DNA of 50,469 nucleotides. Source: a virus. The position numbers and the translations under genes are program-made. The DNA lies in IMG/VR virus record IMGVR_UViG_3300031999_000034, positions 1 to 50,469 of that record; one strand, given 5' to 3'. The notes beneath the pieces were generated by a model, which was not told where the DNA came from, did not search any database, and saw only the letters and a program-made list of their open reading frames with translations. Position 1 is the first letter of the stretch, and the number at the start of each line of letters is the position of its first letter. Positions 17,156 to 36,145 of this stretch are shown piece after piece.

Positions 17156-18028
17156 TTACTCCTTGGGCGCCGCATTCCGGATGCTAAAGCCCGGGGCATC
17201 GGCTGGTACTTCGAAGACCTGATTCGTGTCTACGTCATAGTGGCCGCACAGGACTTGTCCGTGCGCATAGACGGGCCAACCCAACTCCGTCAGCAAAACG
17301 CAGAATCTGATGTCGTGTCCCCACATGACCAGCGGTTTGCTGGCATCCGTATCGACTGCTGGAATGTCCCGCTGGTCGGCCCAAATAGGCTGGCCGGGGT
17401 TGGCATCCATCCATGCCTTGATGGCCTCGACGCGCGCCAAAAGGCAGCCGGCGCCTCCACCCATGATCTGCGTAGGTCGCGCACCCGGACCCATCTCGAT
17501 GTCCCACGCGGCGCCTTCGCCGTGGTTCTTGTACAGGAGAGGTTCGCACGGGGCTTCGCGCGTTGTGTAGATTCCAGTTACCGCGCCAACTTCCGGATGC
17601 TGTTCCATGAAGTTGTGGAGCGTGTACAGTCCCAGTCGCGGAATGATCGTATCGTCATCGACGTAGAAGATGTACTTCGCGTCCGCTCGAATGGCTTCCA
17701 TCGTCATGATCTGGCGCGCTGCCGCCGACCGCAGTCCGGTCTTGATGGCGTAGGACATGGCGACGTTGAGGGGCGGAACCCAGTTCATGTGCGACAGGAA
17801 GAAGATTGCCGGCACGCTGGCCGGCACCACAAAACCCGTATCCACCTTGTAGGACTTTTCGCACCCCGGGCACTGCAGCACACTGTCATGCGCTTTTCCG
17901 CCGATTGGAATAGCCACCATGATCTGGGGTTTCGATGCCAACTTAATGGACGACCTGCGCCCAATTACATAATCGGGTTGTCCATCCAACACCATGTCAC
18001 TATCGGTGATGTGAATGCTATCGCCCAT
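17156..18028 (-). CDS. GT-A fold glycosyltransferase
   Basis: A 290-residue enzyme with KPQIMVAIPIGGK as first strand, a Cys pair (QCPGCEKSY, residues 53 and 56) in an early insert, YIFYVDDDTIIP carrying the metal-binding DxD (D124-D126), GAVTGIYTTRE, GGGAGCLLARVEAIKAW and late WGHDIRFCVLL, the order seen in GT2-like phage glycosyltransferases. It probably transfers a sugar from a nucleotide-sugar donor to a virion protein, a host glycan or DNA; the acceptor is unknown. It is the first gene after the terminator and its end carries the ribosome-binding site of the fibre gene, which suggests a link to the fibre. ATG is preceded by AGGAG. Confidence 0.75.
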   Translation of the reverse strand: MGDSIHITDSDMVLDGQPDYVIGRRSSIKLASKPQIMVAIPIGGKAHDSVLQCPGCEKSYKVDTGFVVPASVPAIFFLSHMNWVPPLNVAMSYAIKTGLRSAAARQIMTMEAIRADAKYIFYVDDDTIIPRLGLYTLHNFMEQHPEVGAVTGIYTTREAPCEPLLYKNHGEGAAWDIEMGPGARPTQIMGGGAGCLLARVEAIKAWMDANPGQPIWADQRDIPAVDTDASKPLVMWGHDIRFCVLLTELGWPVYAHGQVLCGHYDVDTNQVFEVPADAPGFSIRNAAPKE

Positions 18029-27175: not shown

Positions 27176-27251
27176 TGGTAGACCCAAGTAGATTCGAACT
27201 ACTGGCCGCCTGCGTATCAGACAAGTGCTCTACCAGCTGAGCTATGGGTCT
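27176..27251 (-). tRNA. tRNA-Ile (anticodon GAT)
   Basis: A full 76-base cloverleaf with encoded CCA: acceptor AGACCCA/TGGGTCT, D stem GCTC/GAGC, anticodon stem CTTGT/GCAGG with loop CTGATAC, five-base variable loop, T stem AGTAG/CTACT with loop TTCGAAT, discriminator A. The anticodon GAT reads the AUC codon. It lies between tRNA-Met and TerS on the late transcript. Confidence 0.93.
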
Positions 27252-27296: not shown

Positions 27297-27370
27297 TGGA
27301 TGCGGGGGCGGGAATCGAACCCGCCTAGACAGGTTATGGGCCTGTTGGGTGGCCACTACCCAACCCCGCA
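27297..27370 (-). tRNA. tRNA-Met (anticodon CAT), C33
   Basis: A 74-base cloverleaf with encoded CCA: acceptor TGCGGGG/CCCCGCA, D stem GGGT/ACCC, anticodon stem ACAGG/CCTGT, loop CCCATAA, T stem GCGGG/CCCGC with loop TTCGATT, discriminator T. Position 1 pairs with 72, and the three GC pairs of bacterial initiators are not all present, so an elongator Met (or lysidine-modified Ile2) is more likely than initiator. Position 33 is C in place of the near-universal U. The HNH gene's stop codon lies in its D loop. Confidence 0.82.
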
Positions 27371-30212: not shown

Positions 30213-30376
30213 GGTTCGGAACGGCCGAAGCAATGCTGGTGCCGATGCACAAGCAGGGCGACCGGCGATTCGCGCAGTTCGACGGCGCAACACTGGAATT
30301 GACAGACGAGGGCGGCGTTGTAATAATCGACGCGCCAGACGATGCAGAGATTCCTATAACGTGGTGCGGGAGGTGA
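30197..30376 (+). CDS. 59-residue protein, unknown
   Basis: MKALLWFGTAEAMLVPMHKQ opens the protein, then FAQFDGATLELTDEGGVVII and DAPDDAEIPITWCGR, a clear alternating beta pattern with acidic loops. It lies ten bases after the previous stop and four before the next start, and its codon pattern is better than those of the overlapping frames. It is short enough to be missed by usual length limits. No ribosome-binding site stronger than GGGG is present, so coupling from the gene before is likely. Confidence 0.6.
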   Translation: MKALLWFGTAEAMLVPMHKQGDRRFAQFDGATLELTDEGGVVIIDAPDDAEIPITWCGR

Positions 30377-30652: not shown

Positions 30653-30660
30653 ATTAGCTT

Positions 30661-30690
30661 GCACTCATTTCGAGTGCTCGAAAGGAGGTG
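30661..30690 (+). promoter_or_regulatory. hairpin leader with ribosome-binding site, copy 1
   Basis: GCACTC (30661-30666) pairs with GAGTGC (30672-30677) around a five-base loop, followed by TCGAAAGGAGGTGC containing the ribosome-binding site of the gene at 30698. Copy 2 at 31238 has the same layout with a compensating base-pair change. The 5' arm GCAC(T) can also pair with the GGTGC that overlaps the ribosome-binding site, so two competing folds are possible. Confidence 0.65.
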
Positions 30691-30697
30691 CTTCAAC

Positions 30698-31216
30698 ATG
30701 GCAAAGATCACAAATGTTCATCGGCGCATGTATCAGAAAGCAATCGAGGATGCGCTCAAGACCGCGCGCGACGAAGCGAGCGTCAACTACCTGAACGCGG
30801 TAGGCGCCGGGATCAAGGCATACGTTGCCAGCAATCCGGAAGTCAAGCGGGACGTGCGCCGGTTGGCCGCCTTGCAGACAACTGCCGACAACGCCGTCAA
30901 CGAAATGAACAAAATCAAGGAGAATCTCAAGGTCTACGGCCTGAATGCCGACATCTTCAAGACCAGCACGTATTCGTGCCCGTCGGCTGACAACCCGGTA
31001 ATCGATTACGCGGGAGTGCAGGTGCAGGTCAGTTTGCCGTTCAGGTGCTTGCCGAGTCCGATGTTGCCCGCCGGCATCTACGTCGGAAAGGCCGTGGCGG
31101 CGCTGCAAGACCGCAAGGACGAGCTTAAAGACATCGGGTCCAGCTACCGGCGCGCGGTGGCGGAAGCAACCAACACCGACGAGTTGTCGGCGCTGATGAA
31201 CAAGATCACCGTGTAA
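30698..31216 (+). CDS. 172-residue helical protein, unknown
   Basis: Start ATG 30698 lies behind AAAGGAGGTG. The first 120 residues are charged helices with coiled-coil character (KAIEDALKTARDEASVNYLN; RLAALQTTADNAVNEMNKIK), a middle part is strand-rich (VIDYAGVQVQVSLPF), and the end is helical (ALQDRKDELKDIGSSYRRAV). No family was recognised. It shares its hairpin leader with the DUF932 gene that follows, so the two are likely co-regulated and may work together. Confidence 0.7.
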   Translation: MAKITNVHRRMYQKAIEDALKTARDEASVNYLNAVGAGIKAYVASNPEVKRDVRRLAALQTTADNAVNEMNKIKENLKVYGLNADIFKTSTYSCPSADNPVIDYAGVQVQVSLPFRCLPSPMLPAGIYVGKAVAALQDRKDELKDIGSSYRRAVAEATNTDELSALMNKITV

Positions 31217-31237
31217 GTGCCCGGTAACAAACGACTT

Positions 31238-31268
31238 GCACCCATACCGGGTGCTCGAAAGGAGGTGC
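31238..31268 (+). promoter_or_regulatory. hairpin leader with ribosome-binding site, copy 2
   Basis: GCACCC (31238-31243) pairs with GGGTGC (31249-31254) around ATACC, followed by TCGAAAGGAGGTGCT and ATG at 31275. Compared with copy 1, one pair changes from T-A to C-G with the pairing kept, while the 14 bases around the ribosome-binding site are identical. Confidence 0.65.
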
Positions 31269-31274
31269 TACATC

Positions 31275-32210
31275 ATGGCACATATGGTCGAACGGATGGC
31301 GTACTACGGTGCCAAGCCGTGGCACGGTCTGGGCTACGAATTGCCCGACCATGCCGACACCGATCAAATGCTGGTTGCCGCTGGTCTGGACTGGACCGTC
31401 ATGCGGGAGCCTGTCGTGTTCCTCAATAATGAGGGCCACCTGATCGATGTTCCCGACACCTACGCGCTGGTCAGATCGATTGACGGCAAGGTGCTCGCGT
31501 CGTGTGGGCGCCAGTACAAGCCGGTTCAGAATCGGGAAGCGTTCGAGTTCTTCCGCGAGTTCGTGGAAGCTGGAGACGCGACGATGGAGACGGCCGGCTC
31601 ACTGGACGATGGGCGGTATGTCTGGGGCTTGGCCAACCTGAACACCGGGTTCAAGCTGGGCGGGACGGACGAGTCTAAAGGCTACCTGCTGGTGGGCTGC
31701 CCGCACAAGCCGGGCAAGTCGCTGATCATTCGGCACACGATGATTCGCGTCGTATGCTGGAACACGCTTACCGCAGCGCTGGCCGGTGTCGGGCAGGAGT
31801 TCCGAATGCGGCACACGCGGCGATTCGATGCCAGCCAGATGCGGGAAGCGCGGCTGGTGCTGGGCATTGCCCGCGAACAGACGGACGCATTCGCGGCACA
31901 GGCCGAAGCCATTTCCAAGGTCGTGATGGCACATCAGGACGTGGTGGCGCTGTACAGGAGCGTCTACCAGCCGGACGGCAACCAGTATGACCGCGACAAT
32001 CGGGCGGTGCAGCGGGTCATGGGATCGTACTACAACGCACCGGGTGCCACTCCGGGCACCGCGTGGGGCGTCCTGAACGGGGCCACCCACTTCGAGGATC
32101 ATACGCATGGGCGCACCCAAAGCAGCCGGCTCAAGTCGGCGTGGCTTGGGGCGGGCGCTGCGAACAAGACCAAGGTGCTGGCAGCCCTGTTGCAGGGTGC
32201 TGGCGTTTAG
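31275..32210 (+). CDS. DUF932 / TIGR03299-type phage-plasmid protein
   Basis: A 311-residue protein. Family features: MAYYGAKPWHGLGYELPDHA at the start, DTYALVRSIDGKVLASCGRQ with YKPVQNREAFEFFREFVEAG, a central SLIIRHTMIRVVCWNTLTAA, and a C-terminal TPGTAWGVLNGATHFEDH with SSRLKSAWLGAG. These match DUF932 proteins common in phages and plasmids (the TIGR03299 group). Their biochemical role is not established; they often sit near ssDNA annealing and recombination genes. Here it follows the coiled-coil protein under the same type of leader. Confidence 0.85.
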   Translation: MAHMVERMAYYGAKPWHGLGYELPDHADTDQMLVAAGLDWTVMREPVVFLNNEGHLIDVPDTYALVRSIDGKVLASCGRQYKPVQNREAFEFFREFVEAGDATMETAGSLDDGRYVWGLANLNTGFKLGGTDESKGYLLVGCPHKPGKSLIIRHTMIRVVCWNTLTAALAGVGQEFRMRHTRRFDASQMREARLVLGIAREQTDAFAAQAEAISKVVMAHQDVVALYRSVYQPDGNQYDRDNRAVQRVMGSYYNAPGATPGTAWGVLNGATHFEDHTHGRTQSSRLKSAWLGAGAANKTKVLAALLQGAGV

Positions 32211-32289: not shown

Positions 32290-32354
32290 GGCGGGGCCAC
32301 GATGGGCGGTGCCGGCGGCTGTAGCCAAGGGTGGGCGGCCCTAGTGGCCCCGCC
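32290..32354 (+). promoter_or_regulatory. 11-bp inverted repeat with structured loop (RNA element candidate)
   Basis: GGCGGGGCCAC (32290-32300) and its exact complement (32344-32354) enclose 43 bases that contain a smaller GGCT/AGCC hairpin. It fills most of the 163-base gap between the DUF932 gene and 32374. There is no T-run after it, so a factor-independent terminator is unlikely. A leader structure or an RNA-processing or stability element fits better. Confidence 0.6.
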
Positions 32355-32373: not shown

Positions 32374-32604
32374 ATGGCAAGCGTGAAACTGATCTATTCC
32401 GACGATGATCGGCCGGTTGTTGGATTTTCGCTGCGCTCGGGCTGCGGAAACACGGTGTCGGCAGCGCGCAGCAAAAGCATCCGGAACCAGATAACACTTC
32501 GAATCAATGATGAGCAAGCGTATATCCACCTGTATGCCAGCGAAGCGCGCGAAATCGCAGACGCGCTGGTGAAGATGGCCGACAACATGGATTCGAACCC
32601 ATGA
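32374..32604 (+). CDS. 76-residue protein, tandem paralogue A
   Basis: ATG 32374 follows AAAGGAAGTC. The product reads as beta-strands then one helix: VKLIYSDDDRPVVGFSLRSG, CGNTVSAARSKS, then YIHLYASEAREIADALVKMA. The next gene encodes the same pattern: FSL-SGCG-AR-LY-SEA-I-AL. Its stop overlaps the next start (ATGA). Tandem duplication of a small domain with divergence is the simplest reading. Function unknown. Confidence 0.65.
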   Translation: MASVKLIYSDDDRPVVGFSLRSGCGNTVSAARSKSIRNQITLRINDEQAYIHLYASEAREIADALVKMADNMDSNP

Positions 32605-34911: not shown

Positions 34912-35049
34912 ATGCCAAACTTCGGAACGTGGTGCGACCTATGCGAACGAGAGATCCGAGACGACAACGGCGGCCACGCGGACTGGTGCCCTGACAGCGA
35001 CCACGATTATCCAGATCAGGAGGAACCATGTGTAAACCTGCAAGTATGA
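34912..35049 (+). CDS. 45-residue putative zinc-binding protein
   Basis: MPNFGTWCDLCEREIRDDNG is followed by GHADWCPDSDHDYPDQEEPC. The C8-x2-C11 pair with H22 and C25 is a plausible small zinc knuckle, in a very acidic protein. The start lies one base after the previous stop, and its 3' end overlaps the repeat-protein gene by 22 bases. Confidence 0.5.
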   Translation: MPNFGTWCDLCEREIRDDNGGHADWCPDSDHDYPDQEEPCVNLQV

Positions 35050-35900
35050 TTCTGACGAAGGACGGCTGTTTCCACGATCCCGACAGCGACAGACACCAGC
35101 GAATCATCGAAATTCACAAACTCAACGCAGACGGCGCGCGGGGTCCGAACATCGTGCCGGTGGAGATTGTGCCCCCTAGAGAGAACTATTCACTACCGCT
35201 GGAATTGTGGGTGTTTAAAACTGACTGCGACGACGCAATCCTGCCCGACTGGTATACCAATGATCCAGTTGCCGCTGAATCCCGCGCCCGTGTTGGCCTG
35301 CTGGCGTGGGCTGCCGACCACATCAAGAGTGTAGGTGAGCAGGTTGTTGAGATAGGCCAAGAGCGTATTGCCGTCGGGGTATGCCGGCAGACAATCAACG
35401 GGGGCGGGGGCAGCGCCTACGGCAACGCTACGCAGACAATCAACGGGGGCCGGGGCTCCGCCTACGACAACGCTACGCAGACAGTCAACGGGGGCGCGGG
35501 CTACGCCTACGGCAACGCTACGCAGACAATCAACGGGGGCTGTGGCAACGTCTACAACAACGCTACGCAGACAATCAACGGGGGCCGGGGCTCCGCCTAC
35601 GACAACGCTACGCAGACAGTCAACGGGGGCGAGGGCCGCGCCCACGACAACGCTACGCAGACAATCAACGGGGGCTGTGGCAACGTCTACAACAACGCTA
35701 CGCAGACAATCAACGGGGGCTTGGGCTGCGCCTACGACAACGCTACGCAGACAATCAACGGGGGCCGGGGCTCCGCCTACGACAACGCTACGCAGACAGT
35801 CAACGGGGGCTTGGGCTGCGCCTACGACAACGCTACGCAGACACTCAACGGGGGCCGGGGCTACGCCTACGACAGCGCTACAGTGACTGACAATCGGTAG
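35028..35900 (+). CDS. repeat protein: DUF7666-like N-domain and eleven 15-residue repeats
   Basis: A 290-residue protein with ATG 35028 behind AGGAGGAACC. Residues 1-120 (MCKPASMILTKDGCFHDPDS; NADGARGPNIVPVEIVPP; DDAILPDWYTND) match the phage and prophage proteins of the DUF7666/MCKxASxxLTKD type that usually carry pentapeptide-like or other solenoid repeats. Residues 121-285 are eleven tandem copies of QTINGGxGxAYDNAT with variation at a few positions, and form a probable beta-solenoid. Function of this family is not established. The repeat is also present as a 45-bp DNA tandem, so copy number may vary. Confidence 0.75.
   Translation: MCKPASMILTKDGCFHDPDSDRHQRIIEIHKLNADGARGPNIVPVEIVPPRENYSLPLELWVFKTDCDDAILPDWYTNDPVAAESRARVGLLAWAADHIKSVGEQVVEIGQERIAVGVCRQTINGGGGSAYGNATQTINGGRGSAYDNATQTVNGGAGYAYGNATQTINGGCGNVYNNATQTINGGRGSAYDNATQTVNGGEGRAHDNATQTINGGCGNVYNNATQTINGGLGCAYDNATQTINGGRGSAYDNATQTVNGGLGCAYDNATQTLNGGRGYAYDSATVTDNR
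35388..35882 (+). repeat. 45-bp tandem repeat array, 11 units
   Basis: Each unit encodes 15 residues and begins CAGACAATCAACGGGGGC or a one-base variant. Three units (2, 5 and 9) encode identical peptides, as do 4 and 7. Variation is confined mainly to peptide positions 3, 7, 9, 10, 11 and 12. Exact stretches of more than 30 bases between units would allow slippage or recombination. Confidence 0.9.
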
Positions 35901-35924
35901 GGTCATGCGCAATTTGGAGGAACC

Positions 35925-35972
35925 ATGCTGCACTTAATGTGTTGGCTATCCGGAAAGTGGGAATGGGCATGA
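35925..35972 (+). CDS. 15-residue leader peptide candidate
   Basis: MLHLMCWLSGKWEWA has a strong ribosome-binding site (TTGGAGG, four bases before ATG) and its stop overlaps the ATG of the following gene (ATGA). The gene at 35969 has no ribosome-binding site of its own, so this short frame probably serves to load ribosomes. Three Trp and two Met codons in fifteen might also make it a translational sensor, but no attenuator hairpin was found nearby. Confidence 0.5.
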   Translation: MLHLMCWLSGKWEWA

Positions 35973-36145
35973 CAAACGATATCGAGCGCCGCGCCGCCGA
36001 TGGGGAGGGGTGGGCTGCGGGAGAAGCGGATGAGGCGGATACTGAAAGCATACGTCTGCAAGGATCCCATTGGTGTGTGAAACACCAGTTTCATAACAAC
36101 AATGGACTCATAGTGTTACAACGAAAGGACCAAACCGATGAGTGA
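35969..36145 (+). CDS. 58-residue acidic protein, unknown
   Basis: MTNDIERRAADGEGWAAGEA with an acidic stretch EADEADTESIRLQ, then a His/Asn-rich end (HWCVKHQFHNNNGLIVLQRK). It starts inside the stop of the leader-like peptide and overlaps the next gene by eight bases. No family was recognised. The base stretch GCATACGTCTGCAAG in it recurs at 36713. Confidence 0.5.
   Translation: MTNDIERRAADGEGWAAGEADEADTESIRLQGSHWCVKHQFHNNNGLIVLQRKDQTDE

Follow-up and report, generated by a model that had tools for sequence, protein, structure and literature searches.

What is the role of a nearly identical hairpin leader that stands before two consecutive genes of one phage, and does it regulate them? The window analyzed here is the whole of IMG/VR record IMGVR_UViG_3300031999_000034 (50,469 bases, 58% G+C, with a 169-nt repeat at its ends). 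Its genes include those for a terminase, a portal protein, a DNA polymerase, a DnaB-like helicase and an SSB, and two tRNA genes adjoin the terminase gene (27179-27251 and 27300-27370, minus strand). Both leaders are located in a series of small genes on the plus strand.

Layout of the duplicated leader

Each leader consists of a hairpin, a Shine-Dalgarno (SD) sequence, a spacer and a start codon. Copy 1 (30658-30700) ends in the ATG at 30698 and copy 2 (31235-31277) in the ATG at 31275, and the two are identical at 37 of 43 positions. The hairpins, GCACTC-ATTTC-GAGTGC at 30661-30677 and GCACCC-ATACC-GGGTGC at 31238-31254, both have 6 bp and a 5-nt loop, with predicted energies of -9.2 and -11.3 kcal/mol as isolated hairpins. 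On the 3’ side of each comes TCGAAAGGAGGTGC (30678-30691 and 31255-31268), within which lies the extended SD AAAGGAGGTG (30681-30690 in copy 1, 31258-31267 in copy 2); nine of its nucleotides agree with the anti-SD complement, AAGGAGGUG. Read jointly, the leaders are CTTGCAC[T/C]CAT[TT/AC]CG[A/G]GTGCTCGAAAGGAGGTGCT[T/A]CA[A/T]CATG. Although six positions differ, the 19-nt GTGCTCGAAAGGAGGTGCT is identical and the stem perfect in both; the loop (ATNYC) and the flank TCGAAAGG are partly conserved.

The first-pass annotation had described the same leader (a 6-bp hairpin, TCGAAAGGAGGTGC and ATG) before both genes, and this description holds; the window has no other pair like it. The runner-up among ungapped matches to the 43-mer across the whole window reaches 24 of 43 positions, compared with 37 of 43 between the leaders, so the repeat is not a chance match and the leaders are true copies. 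The TCGAAAGGAGGTGC pattern occurs exactly twice in the window, both times in these leaders. Since identity decays within a few codons of the gene starts, the duplicated unit was the leader and not the genes. We rejected a coding origin for the leaders. A TTG does open an in-frame reading of both, but it has no SD before it, and most codon changes between the copies are non-synonymous. A terminator was also rejected, as a T-run follows neither hairpin. Elsewhere, in the structural region, a strong inverted repeat (AAGGGGCAGA...TCTGCCCCTT, leader z -4.8) lies upstream of the gene at 17156-18028 (minus strand) and is perhaps a terminator.

The gene behind copy 1 (30698-31216, plus strand, 172 aa) is an orphan. 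Searches of IMG/VR, GTDB-species genomes and phages found no relative of its product; the only matches are weak ones (25%) to Klebsiella tape-measure proteins in plasmids, and domain and family profile searches recognized no RNA-binding family in it. By its sequence, the gene behind copy 2 (31275-32210, plus strand, 311 aa) is firmly assigned to DUF932, the TIGR03299 phage/plasmid-like proteins (PF06067, E 4.9e-42; TIGR03299, 234.7 bits against a cut-off of 110.7; phrog_1221). The gene after that, 32374, is preceded by a hairpin with an 11-bp outer stem (32290-32354, plus strand; fold -47.4 kcal/mol, z -3.0) whose sequence is unlike that of the leaders; it lies before the ribosome-binding site (RBS) within the 160-nt gap that separates the DUF932 gene from 32374, and ends about 20 nt before the ATG at 32374.

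Stem pairing and predicted folds

The two stems have the common form GCACYC:GRGTGC. At pair 8:16, copy 1 has T-A where copy 2 has C-G, a change that the first-pass annotation had noted, and the remaining five of the six pairs are invariant. That annotation took the change as evidence for selection on structure. In simulations that placed two random changes over the 12 stem positions, all pairs remained Watson-Crick in 3-6% of cases and the stem was kept in 7-21% when G-U was allowed. A single compensatory event is therefore a mild, suggestive sign of selection on the dyad rather than proof of it, and it fits an RNA stem and a DNA dyad alike. The compensatory pair itself stands, but chance alone gives 3-6% and the change does not tell RNA from DNA. 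About 2% of window positions have a 6-bp stem that ends within the 10 nt before them, and the window holds many genes, so one such hairpin by itself is unremarkable.

These rates bear on whether the leader was recently duplicated with function limited to the SD, the stem surviving by chance. The simulated survival rates would allow this, as would the modest z-scores of the leaders against shuffles (about -1.5); the stem is nonetheless perfect and the 19-nt GTGCTCGAAAGGAGGTGCT unchanged after divergence at 6 of 43 positions, and we regard chance survival as quite unlikely. The same dyad could instead be a DNA operator, with a transcription regulator bound to the 17-bp GCACYC-N5-GRGTGC. Arms of 6 bp with a 5-bp spacer are of ordinary operator size, and the compensatory change would preserve such a site as well as it preserves an RNA stem. 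However, no sigma-70 match overlaps either dyad, the distance from dyad to SD and ATG is fixed, the SD itself was copied along, and further dyads in the window do not exceed the chance count. A DNA operator is thus a distinctly improbable reading.

Next to the hairpin, the first-pass annotation saw a second pairing and proposed a two-state RNA switch, in which two partners, the 3’ arm of the hairpin and the GGTGC of the SD, would compete for the 5’ arm and so toggle translation. The GCACY:GGTGC pairing is indeed available in both copies (with a G-U in copy 1), but when the two helices are compared in isolation, the hairpin is the more stable by 5.3-5.4 kcal/mol in either copy. What favors a switch is the folding of copy 1, where a larger SD-masking structure (30661-30691; TTTCGA:TCGAAA plus GCAC:GTGC) has a predicted minimum free energy (MFE) of -12.3 kcal/mol and dominates in all contexts tried (P 0.79-0.94). 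In copy 2, changes in the loop remove three of the 12 pairs of this fold, and the masking pair has a probability of at most 0.004. Here the competitor is another segment, GTGCCCGGTA at 31217-31226, upstream of the hairpin; it forms a 10-bp pairing with 31245-31254, which includes the hairpin’s 3’ arm, in the MFE structure of 31208-31295, and with it present the local hairpin has a probability of 0.37-0.49. Copy 1 has no counterpart of this segment. The substitutions between the copies thus preserve the local stem and disrupt the masking fold, and the local hairpin is the sole predicted structure common to both.

The masking fold is thus predicted for copy 1 and missing from copy 2, and the two-state switch is not supported, because a conserved device should keep two mutually exclusive folds in every copy. 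Searches at both leaders gave no Rfam match and no ligand-binding core, and no sign of feedback by either gene product was found, although the first-pass annotation had suggested a response to one of them. Freeing the SD from structure is predicted to cost 3.5-3.7 kcal/mol for copy 1 and 1.7-4.3 kcal/mol for copy 2, so folding predicts no clear difference in expression between the copies. We consider the switch very improbable. The wider proposal of a duplicated translational control module fared better: the leader is duplicated, its stem is kept, a strong SD adjoins it and a role in expression is plausible, while the two-state mechanism is not supported.

Leader hairpins in related phages

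We looked for further copies among relatives of the two genes. DUF932 relatives occur in 460 phage records and at more than 100 IMG/VR loci, all of them distant, with the nearest 50-54% identical (L001). Inspection by eye and a covariance model found the leader in none of them. The model (R1) was built from the two copies and run over 68 sources and 80 more loci (about 147 related loci) and over the window. The two copies score about 67 bits (copy 1, 67.2) by construction; the best foreign matches reach 16-17 bits (E 0.02-0.03), and no convincing third copy appeared among these loci or in the window. We dismissed those foreign matches as chance since their stems are broken or skipped and their positions unrelated. 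An exact 18-nt pattern had no match in IMG/VR, and none of the seven matches to a 15-nt pattern had a hairpin or related genes. The first-pass annotation had held that relatives keeping the genes but not the pairing would refute its proposal, and the DUF932 relatives are one form of this, albeit all at a distance. Close strains (L036, L039 and L040, about 75-99% DNA identity) are represented by contigs that end at about 29.3 kb or begin at about 35.5 kb, to either side of the leaders. The nearly identical strain contig L039 breaks within an array of 45-bp repeats at 35297-35983, in the ORF at 35028-35900, which encodes a 15-residue repeat like ATQTINGGxGxAYxN.

Next, we asked how common such hairpins are, counting stems of 6 bp or more upstream of the RBS with a rough gene call. 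Among non-redundant DUF932 leaders, 21 of 84 carry one, compared with 4.4 expected from dinucleotide shuffles; for other genes on the same contigs the count is 56 of 575, compared with 30 expected. Relative to all genes (75 of 687), the DUF932 excess has a p of 7e-4. When gaps of 35-150 nt are matched it vanishes, with 8 of 39 DUF932 leaders and 38 of 190 leaders of other genes carrying a hairpin (20% each), and we therefore rejected a DUF932-specific hairpin element. With all longer gaps included, a weaker excess is found (20 of 74 vs. 64 of 461, p 0.009), which possibly arises in part because the crude gene call misses upstream genes and so inflates gaps. The equal 20% rates mark leader hairpins as a general phage trait: stem-loops just 5’ of strong ribosome sites are a widespread style of phage leader, some of them maintained by compensation. 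At a rate near 20%, itself dependent on the rough gene call, finding a single hairpin in a leader says little in favor of a switch, even when one of its pairs is compensatory.

Two further sets of leaders were observed in these contigs. In one DUF932 phage group (L117, L124, L125, L143, L150, L156, L158, L160, L172 and L173), which was picked by hand and so is biased towards structure, four of the six pairs in the leader stem have changed in both partners. A TATAAT-like box often lies just upstream, and the group’s stem is possibly a family of 5’-terminal mRNA hairpins. Another gene has leader hairpins with a GCAA loop, placed before AGAAAGGAGA (L150:6303-6361, L158:6820-6878 and L172:6595-6653); among DUF932-bearing phage contigs these differ by compensatory changes, as in TCTACC-GCAA-GGTAGA and TTCTAAC-GCAA-GTTAGAA.

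A translational operator would give the duplicated stem a more specific role: a phage protein, perhaps the DUF932 or 30698 product, would bind the hairpin by the SD and repress both genes. The hairpin lies 3 nt from the SD region, its two copies stand on adjoining genes, and the loop and flank are partly conserved between them. There is also a precedent in T4 gp43, whose own hairpin operator is 18 nt long and has sequence that overlaps the RBS (PMC3014915). Against this, DUF932 relatives do not keep the hairpin sequence, and the profile searches recognized no RNA-binding family in the 30698 product. An operator of this kind is unlikely. For the more particular proposal that the 43-nt leader is an RNA operator by which the DUF932 or orphan protein controls translation of both genes, and that DUF932 leaders across phages are lineage-specific autogenous hairpins, we see very little chance.

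A proposed copied initiation cassette and its counterparts

We somewhat favor the reading of the leader as a duplicated, start-associated cassette with a constitutive stem-loop. The cassette would comprise the stem-loop, the long SD and the ATG, and the second copy would have arisen by copying or recombination of this leader unit. The orphan 30698 would thereby have come to lie between two leader copies, upstream of DUF932, perhaps by way of a gene-plus-leader unit. We infer that the stem forms in the RNA, where it would act as a constitutive leader element, shaping the structure beside the ribosome site or initiation itself, and would not be a switch responsive to a ligand or a gene product. 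It may also act as a stabilizer that shields the mRNA from 5’ decay. No sigma-70 match was found just upstream of either hairpin, the nearest being at 30299-30327, about 330 nt upstream, so 5’-terminal protection would require processing of a longer mRNA.

The cassette is favored by the near-identity of the two leaders, the single fold that they share and the frequency of leader hairpins in phages, and by two further observations: the T-A/C-G change retains the stem while the SD-masking fold is not retained, and a strong hairpin likewise precedes the next gene, 32374. Weighing against it are the small numbers (two copies, one compensatory event), the modest z-scores of the leaders and the predicted folding of copy 1, which prefers a masked SD over the local hairpin, a preference more in keeping with repression than with a constitutive aid. 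Should the stem be functional, this would be another phage that copies a compact initiation cassette and puts new orphan genes downstream of it, thereby supplying them with ready-made expression.

Similar arrangements have been described in other phages. Start-Associated Sequences (SAS) and extended SAS (ESAS) are found in cluster K mycobacteriophages (PMC3203893) and cluster EF Microbacterium phages (PMC7302621), and their function is unproven. SAS is a 13-bp GGGATAGGAGCCC at the RBS, present in 11-19 copies per cluster K genome (PMC3203893), while ESAS has imperfect 17-bp repeat arms and is conserved across related phages (PMC3203893, PMC7302621). The leader resembles them in that the RBS position has an unusually well conserved sequence, repeated before non-structural genes with an inverted repeat just upstream. 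Unlike SAS, its RBS sequence is CGAAAGGAGGTGC and not the 13-bp GGGATAGGAGCCC, and the 50-kb record holds two copies. The inverted repeat stands upstream of the RBS repeat as in ESAS, but with perfect 6-bp arms, and the leader is absent from the relatives found.

The T4 gene 43 operator (PMC3014915) is likewise a small hairpin beside the SD of a phage gene; protein binding was tested there, whereas the leader here is a candidate site proposed from sequence. The promoter-early stem-loop (PeSL) cassettes of T4-type phages are repeated intergenic stem-loops linked to the recombinational gain of orphan genes (cited in PMC4503421). As in these cassettes, a stem-loop is repeated in an intergenic leader, and the orphan 30698 between the copies may be an acquired gene; unlike in them, neither leader has a sigma-70 promoter match, there are two copies only, and no relationship to T4 is shown. 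The leader resembles SAS/ESAS in layout and the T4-type PeSL cassettes in its possible link to gene gain, but it lacks defining features of each: the sequence and copy number of SAS and the promoter of PeSL.
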